A DNA stretch of 64,000 bases from an uncultured Alphaproteobacteria bacterium. Lineage in GTDB: Bacteria > Pseudomonadota > Alphaproteobacteria > HIMB59. Positions 20,026-31,682 of the stretch are shown here, piece after piece. A program made the position numbers and the translations under genes. The stretch is taken from NCBI GenBank assembly GCA_902546975.1, contig CACCLU010000003.1:124001-188000 (forward strand). The letters are read 5' to 3'. Under the pieces are notes generated by a model. The model was given only the letters and a program-made list of their open reading frames with translations. It had not been told where the DNA came from and ran no database searches. Numbering within the stretch: the first letter of the stretch is position 1; each line of letters opens with the position of its first letter.

Positions 20026-20151
20026 ATGAAAATTAAAAGTTCTCTTAAAACAGCTAAAACCAGAGATAAAAATAATCAACTGGTTAGAAGAAAGGGTAGG
20101 CTATATGTAATCAATAAAACCAACCCAAGAATGAAAGCCAGACAAGGCTAA
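20026..20151 (+). CDS. rpmJ: 50S ribosomal protein L36
   Basis: Not in ORF track; ATG 20026 encodes [41 protein letters not shown] (41 aa), the Cys-free L36 type. Confidence 0.95.
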
Positions 20152-27589: not shown

Positions 27590-28048
27590 ATGAGTTTGGC
27601 AAAAAAAATTTATGATGACGTTAAAAATGCTTTAAAAGGTGGAGATAAGAAAAAACTTTCAATAGCTAGGTATGTCTATTCTGAGTTAAAAAATTTTCTC
27701 ATTAAAGAGAATCTAGATAGGGATGTGCTTAAATTATCTGATGAAAATATAATCAAAATTGTAAAGACCCAACTAAAACAAAAAAAAGAGTCTTTAGATT
27801 TCACAATAAAAGCTAAGGATCAAGTTAGAATAGAGGACTTGGAATTTGATATCAATTACCTAAATGACTTTCTTCCGACAATGATGGATGAGAAAAATAC
27901 AATTGAAATTATACTAAACCACATAAAAGAAAATAACTTAGAAAATAAAGACTTTGGAAAAATAATGGGTTTTCTTAAACAAAACTATAATAATAAAATT
28001 GATATGAATTTAGCTTCAAAAGTTATCAAAAATACTTTCAAAGAATGA
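27590..28048 (+). CDS. GatB/YqeY domain protein
   Basis: Length, YqeY-like layout, C-terminal FGKIMGFLKQNYNNKIDMNLASKVIK; carA-yqeY-dnaG-rpoD context. Confidence 0.88.
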   Translation: MSLAKKIYDDVKNALKGGDKKKLSIARYVYSELKNFLIKENLDRDVLKLSDENIIKIVKTQLKQKKESLDFTIKAKDQVRIEDLEFDINYLNDFLPTMMDEKNTIEIILNHIKENNLENKDFGKIMGFLKQNYNNKIDMNLASKVIKNTFKE

Positions 28049-29628
28049 CGGATGATAATATTAAGGAAGTTATAAACAGAACCTCTATTGTTGAGATTAT
28101 AAACTCTACTGTACCTTTAAAGAAAAAAGGCAGTAATTATTTTGGTTTAAGTCCCTTTAAAAAAGAAAAAACTCCTTCTTTTTCAGTAAATGAAGAAAAA
28201 AAAATATTCCATTGTTTTAGCACTGGAGAACATGGAAATGTAATTGATTTTTTAATAAAAGTTAAAGGATATAGCTTTAAGGATGCTCTGTATGAACTAG
28301 CAGATAAGGCTGGTATTGAAATAAGTTATAAATCATCAAAATTAAATAATATTATTTATGAGATTAATTCTTTAACAAAAGAATTATTTTATAATAATTT
28401 ATTAAATTCTAAAAAACACTTAGATTATTTACTTAAAAATAGAAAGTTTAATATAGAAACTATTAATAAGTTTGAATTAGGATCATCAGTAAATTCATTT
28501 GAACTTCAAAAAAAACTCTTGAAAAATTTTGAAGTCAATAACTTAGTAGCAGCAGGGGTTTTTAGTAGAACTAACAACACTAAATTATTTTTTTCTAATA
28601 GAGTCATGGTTCCAATAGTTAATATGCAAAATAAAACCCTGGGATTTGGGGGAAGAGTAATTGATAATAGCTTACCAAAATATATTAATACAGCTGAAAC
28701 GAAAATTTTTAAAAAAAAACAAATCTTATTTAATGAAAAAATACTTAATAAACAAAATAGTAAAAAAATAATAATAGTTGAAGGCTATTTTGATGTTATT
28801 AAATTAGAACAAAGTGGTTTTACAAACTGTTTGGCTCCTCTTGGCACATCAATAAATCATGAAAAATTAATTGAAATCACAAAGAAAGGATTTGAGATAA
28901 TTGTATGTCTTGATGGAGATATAGCTGGAAGAAATGCCACTATAAGATTAATGAATAATTTACTTGCCGATAAAAATTTTGAGCTTGGAATAAAATTTGT
29001 ACTCTTACCTAAAAATTTTGATCCAGATCAATTAATAGAGTCAAATATGTCTGATAAATTACATAAACTTATTGATCAACCATTATCAATCGAGGAGTTA
29101 ATAGAAAAATATTTAGAAAAGTTTCACAAAAGTAATGATGTTGATAGCCAGTTTAAAGGATCAAAAGTTTTAAAAAGTTTACTTAATAACGTATCTAACA
29201 TTGATTTAAAAAAAATATTAACTAATTACTTTAATAAAATAAGTTTAAATCAGACAACATTGAAAAATAAGTCAAAGCCAAATTATCAAAAATTAGAACT
29301 CAAATTTGATTTGAAGTCAAAATTTTCTGCAGCACTAATTATATTTTATATTGAAAACCTCTCGAACAGGGAGAGAGTCTTTGATTTGATAGCAACAGCT
29401 AAATTTGATGGAAAATTTAGAGAAATTCGTGATTTGATAATTAAAAAAACTCTATTCAAATCAACAACTTTAGAGATTTATGAAGAATTAGACTCTAAGG
29501 GATTGAATTTTACAAAAAATTTACTATTTTCTAATGAAGTTCGAAGGCTGTGTAGATTTGCATCACCTAATTTTAATGAAGACCCTTATAATGAAATTGA
29601 AAAAACAATTAGTTTTATAAATAGTTAA
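28045..29628 (+). CDS. dnaG: DNA primase
   Basis: [72 protein letters not shown]. Confidence 0.95.
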
Positions 29629-29630
29629 AA

Positions 29631-31682
29631 ATGCCAAAAAAAAAAATTACAAAAAAAAAAATTAAAAAGAAAATTATAAACAAAAAAGCTTCAACAAAAA
29701 AAAATACTAAATCGTTAAATATTACCAAAAAATCATCTATTAAATCAAACCCTCTTGAAACAATCTTTAAAGAAAATGAAAGTCAACTTATTTCATTAAT
29801 TACTAAAGAATTTGATAAAGACCTAGCCTCAAAAGCAAAAACATATATTAAATCTTATTCAAAGATTGAAGACTCGATTATTTCCGTCAATGATTTCTTA
29901 AATTATATTGAAAATCTTGATGAAGTACTCTTTAAATTATTTAAGGCATATACCTCATCTTCGGACATAGACTCATCTGCGTCAAATGACGAATCAGAAG
30001 AGGAAGAAAAATCAACTGGTGTTAAAAGTGATGACCCAGTCAGAATGTATCTTAAAGAGATGGGCAATGTTGAATTGCTCTCTAGAGAAGGTGAGATAGC
30101 AATTGCAAAAAGAATCGAGTCTGGATTAGATAGGATGATGAATTCTATCCTCGAATGTCCGGCTTCAATCGATATCCTAAAAAAATGGATTGAACAAGTA
30201 AAACATAATGAAATTAATCTAAGAGAAATAGTTGATTTTGATGAATATTTTAATGAAGATAATGATCCTTATTCTAATTCTTCAAAAAGAAAAGAAATCC
30301 AAAAAATAATCAATGACAAAAAAAAAGCTCTCTTCAAAGAAAAGCAGCAACAGATGAAAGAGCAAGGAATAGAAATAGATAAAGATAAACTTCAAGAAAC
30401 TTCAAATGAAGAGGATATCGAAAATGAAAGTTTTTCTATTTCTATAATTGAAGAGTTTTACAAACCTGAGATTTTAAAAAAATTAGATAGAGTTCTTATT
30501 CTATCCGAAAATATAACTAAAATTAAAAAGAATAAAAATATTACTAAAATATCTGATGCAAAATCATTAAAAGAATTAAAAAAAAATCAGGATGAGATAC
30601 TTAATTATTTTAATGAAATAAAAATTAAACCCCACAAATTAGAAGAAATAATTACTCATCTGTATTCAATTAATAAAGAGATTCAGTCAAAAGAGGTATC
30701 TTTATTAACACTTGCCACTCAAAATAAAATCAGCAGAGATGTATTTTTGAAATATCACAATTTAAAAGATACCTATACCCTTTACCAAAAACATATGATC
30801 TCTTCAGATGAGTCGTTTAAAGTCCTATTTCAGAAAAATAGTGACAAACTGAAAGGTATTTACAAGGAGGTCCTTAATTTATCTAAAATTGCAAATCAAA
30901 ATACTATCGAGTTTAAAGAGAAAGTTAGAGAGATACAATCTGGCCAAAGAACTGCCAACCAAGCAAAAAAAGAAATGATCGAAGCTAATTTACGTTTGGT
31001 TATATCAATAGCAAAAAAATATACTAATAGAGGCCTTCAGTTTTTAGACCTTATCCAAGAGGGAAACATTGGATTAATGAAAGCAGTAGATAAATTTGAA
31101 TACAGGAGGGGTTATAAATTTTCAACTTACGCAACATGGTGGATCAGACAAGCAATTACTAGATCTATCGCTGATCAGGCAAGAACCATACGTATTCCAG
31201 TTCATATGATTGAAACAATTAATAAAATTGTGAGATCTAGTCGACAATTGATACTTGAGCTAGGAAGAGAACCTACCCCAGAGGAGCTATCTTTGAGATT
31301 GAAAATGCCCATTGAAAAAGTTCGAAAAGTTTTAAAAATTGCGAAAGAACCCGTAAGTTTAGAAACTCCTATAGGTGACGATGATGATAGTTTCCTAGGT
31401 GACTTTATTGAAGATAAAAATGCAGTGATACCTGAAGATGCAGTTATGCAATTAAACCTAAGAGAAACCACAACTAAAATTCTTTCAACATTGACTCCTA
31501 GAGAGGAGAGAGTTTTGAGGATGAGATTTGGCATAGGCATGTCGTCAGATCATACTCTAGAGGAAGTAGGCCAACAGTTTAGCGTAACCAGAGAAAGGAT
31601 TAGACAAATTGAGGCAAAAGCCCTGAGAAAATTAAAACATCCAATTAGATCTAAAAAACTTAAATCTTTTATGGACTCGTAA
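29631..31682 (+). CDS. rpoD: RNA polymerase sigma factor RpoD
   Basis: [81 protein letters not shown]-terminal [20 protein letters not shown]. Confidence 0.98.

Follow-up and report, generated by a model that had tools for sequence, protein, structure and literature searches.

Probable repeated conversion of the DnaG primase zinc domain to a zinc-less form in Alphaproteobacteria

The DnaG primase of Alphaproteobacteria has, in all likelihood, undergone the same change more than once: in a functional single-copy enzyme, the N-terminal domain appears to have been converted, in an all-or-none manner, to metal-free template recognition. DnaG starts every new DNA strand, and the template is normally read by a small domain held together by zinc. 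With less assurance, we consider it fairly probable that each conversion involved the same approximately five coordinated substitutions (C-H-G-C-A to S-x-S/A-S/T-E/K), i.e., that a complete switch from a zinc-dependent to a metal-free form was repeated within one class, with function kept and with sister lineages found in both states.

The dnaG gene of the window

The window, i.e., the whole stretch of 64,000 nucleotides that was analysed, comes from a contig of an uncultured alphaproteobacterium and contains dnaG on the + strand, in a frame that is uninterrupted from the ATG at 28045 to 29628. The encoded DNA primase of 527 amino acids scores 350.7 bits with TIGR01391 (bacterial DnaG), above the curated cut-off of 283.6, and its core domains PF08275 (92.8 bits) and PF13662 (Toprim, 62.4 bits) are present. 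The N-terminal domain (residues 1-97, 28045..28335, + strand) is matched by PF01807 (Zn_ribbon_DnaG / CHC2 zinc finger) with 110 bits and belongs to this family by homology and by predicted fold, while at the ligand positions it reads S-x2-K-x17-C-x2-T in place of C-x2-H-x17-C-x2-C. A PF01807 profile search of the source genome (assembly of 1.29 Mb in 12 contigs, 94% complete) returned one match, and a second dnaG with intact ligands, against which the sequence-only reading had warned, is thus absent from this 94%-complete assembly. The C-terminal region to which the helicase binds is the least conserved part of DnaG (PMC6163395). No Pfam match to a helicase-binding (DnaB-binding) domain was found in the window DnaG; the protein is short, and its C-terminal portion (29140-29628) may have a reduced or divergent helicase-binding part.

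Immediately upstream, a YqeY-like gene (27590..28048, + strand; PF09424, 82.9 bits) overlaps the start of dnaG by 4 bases, and rpoD (29631..31682, + strand; sigma-70 regions) follows dnaG immediately downstream. The dnaG locus contains rpoD in most of the genomes fetched, both zinc-less and canonical, which speaks against an unrelated dnaG inserted elsewhere in the genome.

Recognition of primer start sites is ascribed to the zinc ribbon of DnaG, whose four ligands, a histidine and three cysteines, have been called highly conserved (PMC6163395). It had been claimed from the letters of the window that three of the four ligands are replaced there, and reading of the codons together with the alignment confirms this: the first cysteine is Ser36 (agt, 28150..28152), the histidine is Lys39 (aaa, 28159..28161) and the fourth cysteine is Thr60 (act, 28222..28224), while the third, Cys57 (tgt, 28213..28215), is kept; all lie on the + strand, and the spacing (x2, x17, x2) is as in the canonical domain. 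Two further positions on the same strand differ from the canonical form. Ser59 (agc, 28219..28221) replaces a glycine that is found in 99% of canonical primases, the zinc-less ones having serine in 79% and alanine in 21%, and Glu62 (gaa, 28228..28230) replaces the usual alanine, the zinc-less primases having glutamate in 49% and lysine in 41%. No residue of the 33-residue stretch around the motif differs among the 29 compared genomes of the window's genus, so the substitutions are not a sequencing error. In one genome of this genus (G364:C1:498771-499053) the zinc domain of dnaG is split over two short open frames, probably by a frameshift or an assembly error.

Distribution of the zinc-less domain

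The class was sampled by drawing 289 genomes, 277 of which have the domain, and at least one DnaG locus was fetched for most families. The first 202 distinct DnaG proteins comprised 161 with C-H-C-C and 41 zinc-less ones. Alignment of the DnaG N-termini, which the sequence-only reading had proposed together with the mapping of ligand loss on a tree, was carried out for 311 distinct alphaproteobacterial proteins and divided them into 166 with C-H-C-C and 145 of the zinc-less form S-x-[C/D]-[S/T], a set to which targeted searches and the window's genus contributed many of the added zinc-less proteins. Intermediates between the two forms numbered 0 of 311. In the zinc-less consensus, position 36 is serine, 39 is polar or glycine, 57 is cysteine or aspartate and 60 is serine or threonine; Gly59 is replaced by serine or alanine in essentially all zinc-less proteins and Ala62 by glutamate or lysine in most. 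Cys57 has become aspartate in at least three zinc-less families, and thus the third cysteine does not count as a conserved leftover of the zinc site in zinc-less primases. By Jensen-Shannon separation of the two classes, columns 36, 39, 60 and 59 stand at 0.97-0.99 and column 62 at 0.72, the next column reaching 0.41; outside the domain no column of the 311 sequences separates the classes well (best 0.345), so that compensating changes in other parts of DnaG were rejected.

Zinc-less carriers among the matches listed include Caulobacter, Hellea, Algimonas, Litorimonas, Bradyrhizobium and Afipia, as well as Methylobacterium, Xanthobacter, Rhodomicrobium, Chelatococcus and Parvibaculum; the scan confirmed at least 593 places, of which the best 80 were kept. 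Among 399 Pseudomonadota genomes the zinc-less pattern matches 39, all of them Alphaproteobacteria, and this is a lower bound because the pattern used TCN serine codons only and misses the window itself (AGT). The suggestion that the loss is an alphaproteobacterial trait thus holds insofar as the form was met in this class only, and does not hold for the class as a whole, since about half of its sampled sequences are canonical. Zinc-less DnaG is neither peculiar to the source genome or to streamlined marine bacteria nor class-wide. Both states occur even in the window's order, where the window's genus is zinc-less and the other sampled family, also of small genomes, keeps CPFH...CFGC in the members read.

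Several unusual records were encountered in this material. A single SPFH pattern match (L462, G677:C27:13136-13324), which falls into neither of the two classes, was considered as a partial intermediate and rejected, because it belongs to a second, short primase-like protein and the genome's own dnaG is canonical; this protein of about 400 amino acids (SPFH...YDFSIGEGG) has lost the cysteine and kept the histidine, and is possibly part of a mobile element. Two canonical DnaG (L088, G087:C19:2989-4218, and L114, G228:C246:3381-4601) are interrupted by a large in-frame insert with the appearance of an intein (CxAAETxVI.RDG.RPIASL ... EDNILTGN|CFGCG); it starts at the third zinc cysteine, which would place an intein inside the zinc site. 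Two records titled Candidatus Marinimicrobia (L265 and L268) have dnaG and rpoD of alphaproteobacterial type and are probably mislabelled or mis-binned; on rpoD, L265 groups with records labelled Rhodospirillaceae.

Conservation and predicted fold

Zinc-less domains are at least as constrained as canonical ones. At a core identity of 35-40% and with the six motif columns removed, domain identity is 0.55 in zinc-less pairs versus 0.39 in canonical pairs. Moreover, at matched core identity a zinc-less domain resembles a canonical one more closely than canonical domains resemble each other, which points to slower evolution of the zinc-less domain.

The fold was proposed to be retained, and structure prediction agrees: the AlphaFold2 model of the window domain has a mean pLDDT of 92.3 (96-97 around the former zinc site) and aligns by Foldseek to the solved zinc domain 1D0Q with a TM score of 0.90 and an rmsd of 1.0 A. 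For a canonical domain of the same order, taken as control, the pLDDT is 91.7 and the TM score 0.86. AlphaFold2 may, however, produce the family fold regardless of how stable the protein is. In C. difficile primase, a lysine beside the zinc ribbon (K70) affects the choice of the trinucleotide (PMC5204125). His56 of the window, which is kept beside the third cysteine, stands opposite a lysine of A. aeolicus primase in the alignment, and on our reading position 56 would be the equivalent of K70.

State changes on trees

For the tree tests rpoD was the independent marker, and the one-clade tests were made on 43 taxa, a set free of long-branched lineages such as the window's own. The distribution of the two states calls for 13-14 changes on the rpoD tree and 15 on the DnaG core tree, of which strongly supported branches force 4-5, and for 17 changes on a wider DnaG set (FastTree), of which they force 8; support for the deep branches is weak in both the rpoD and the DnaG trees, and the number forced by strong branches alone is 4-8. 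Forcing all zinc-less sequences into one clade costs delta lnL 258 on rpoD (p 9e-53) and delta lnL 128 on the DnaG core (p 9e-5), and both markers reject it. A single vertical origin of the zinc-less domain is thereby rejected, which leaves repeated losses or an exchange of the domain. The clearest event is found in family f30, where a zinc-less genome (G028) and a canonical one (G159) are sisters on rpoD with a canonical outgroup. An independent-pairs test yielded 4 strongly supported pairs, too few to reach significance. The conversion appears to have arisen in several alphaproteobacterial lineages, the window's genus probably among them; depending on where this long-branched lineage joins the tree, its loss may be an event of its own.

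Alternative explanations

Repeated loss is a simpler reading of the sequences than domain exchange. A serious, if unlikely, alternative is that the zinc-less domain had one or a few origins and then spread by recombination that replaced the first ~100 codons or the whole of dnaG. On the same taxa and with the motif columns removed, the domain itself needs 9 state changes (4 on the 43 taxa) versus 14 (10) for rpoD and 15 (8) for the DnaG core, the domain without its six motif columns fails to reject one zinc-less clade (p 0.098), and the string TVVPDKGF beside the motif is common to distant families, all of which speaks for exchange. However, the 63 flanking columns alone do reject one clade, if marginally (p 0.047), and among control blocks of 90 columns each taken from the core, three of four reject it and one fails (p 0.07), which indicates the limited power of such a comparison. 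In the f30 pair, the downstream flank of the zinc-less member is still like that of its canonical sister (IGWVMR), and the closeness of zinc-less domains to canonical ones fits slower evolution and not transfer.

The other alternatives concern the zinc itself and the use of the domain. The sequence-only reading had suggested zinc sparing, by which a streamlined marine genome would adapt to scarce zinc. This would agree with the small genomes in the window's genus (1.3-1.4 Mb for nearly complete assemblies) and with the second core protein of the source genome that is without its zinc site, the cysteine-free, zinc-free type ribosomal protein L36 (rpmJ, 20026-20148, + strand). This explanation is nevertheless improbable: RpoC and ClpX of the same genome keep all their zinc cysteines, L36 alone of these being cysteine-free, which rejects a genome-wide loss of zinc; the carriers of zinc-less DnaG, Caulobacter, Bradyrhizobium and Methylobacterium among them, have genomes of 0.8-8.8 Mb and include many non-marine genera; and the small genomes of the other family of the order keep the ligands. 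Classical zinc-sparing pairs are zinc-regulated paralogs, and the source genome, with its one PF01807 match, has no pair of zinc-dependent and zinc-free dnaG. Continued binding of zinc, or of another metal, through nearby residues, a point raised at the outset, is also improbable. The window protein, like most zinc-less primases, retains Cys57, His56, His63 and Glu62, and these could in principle bind metal weakly. Yet 8 distinct domains among the 156 zinc-less ones examined (97 residues each; L111, L112, L432 and L460 are included) contain no cysteine and no histidine in the same motif frame, so that a classical zinc site is impossible in those, and carriers of such domains that were searched by family (G183, G189, G657 and G671) have one PF01807 match each. 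Besides the replacement of Cys57 by aspartate, Cys57, His56 and His63 vary among relatives. We infer that zinc is absent from the window domain as well. Finally, the domain might be degenerate and unused, with the primase initiating without it; animal Twinkle, which has lost primase activity (PMC10557236), shows that such decay of a primase module can occur in this superfamily. This is hardly tenable for a single-copy dnaG with intact catalytic domains, in which, over the 29 genomes of the window's genus, the median dN/dS of the domain is 0.017 versus 0.088 for the catalytic core, i.e., five times lower.

A possible mechanism of metal-free template recognition

Under the preferred reading of repeated conversion, the zinc site would have been removed as a unit, with C36 changed to serine, H39 to a polar residue, C60 to serine or threonine, G59 to serine or alanine and, usually, A62 to glutamate or lysine. 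Hydrogen bonds and a salt bridge formed by the small hydroxyls at positions 36, 59 and 60, the polar residue at 39 and the charged one at 62 could close both knuckles. This network, together with the more strongly conserved rest of the domain, most likely holds the two beta-hairpin knuckles that zinc formerly clamped, and the domain would still serve the Toprim core by recognising start trinucleotides on the lagging-strand template. That template reading is retained we infer from the strong conservation and the predicted fold. Work on the T7 primase treated the zinc motif as needed for template recognition (PMC6163395), and by this analogy a loss of template recognition in the zinc-less domain is possible.

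Significance and comparison with known systems

In roughly half of the alphaproteobacterial DnaG sampled, with standard model genera represented, the ligands described as "highly conserved" are missing. We found no description of a zinc-less DnaG in the open-access literature, either in general or as typical of this clade; the subscription literature lies outside that search, and an earlier notice there is possible. The natural pairs of zinc and zinc-less primases make the role of zinc in this enzyme directly testable, and they are a reason for caution with zinc-directed primase inhibitors against Alphaproteobacteria. If the proposed reading is true, a core replication protein encoded by a single gene copy has lost its metal convergently, and nature has provided a replicate experiment on a zinc ribbon that loses its metal without losing its function.

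The closest known system is the canonical DnaG zinc domain (CHC2 ribbon, PF01807; 1D0Q and 2AU3), which the zinc-less form resembles in length, predicted fold, surrounding motif, place within DnaG and the operon adjacent to rpoD, and from which it differs by the absence of three or four ligands and by the switched residues at G59 and A62. DnaG of Caulobacter, Bradyrhizobium, Methylobacterium, Xanthobacter and Parvibaculum, among other genera, share the pattern S-x-x-polar ... [C/D]-x-x-[S/T] with the window, although in several of them the third cysteine is also aspartate and thus none of the four ligands is left. Zinc-free (C-) ribosomal proteins, such as L36 without cysteines, are likewise metal-free forms in which the zinc ribbon of the same protein has been replaced; the classical cases are pairs of zinc-regulated paralogs, whereas dnaG is single-copy. 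The primase-like domain of animal Twinkle is another module of the DnaG/gp4 type that has changed in evolution (PMC10557236), but priming was lost in Twinkle, while the window DnaG is the only DnaG-type primase found in its genome and is strongly conserved.
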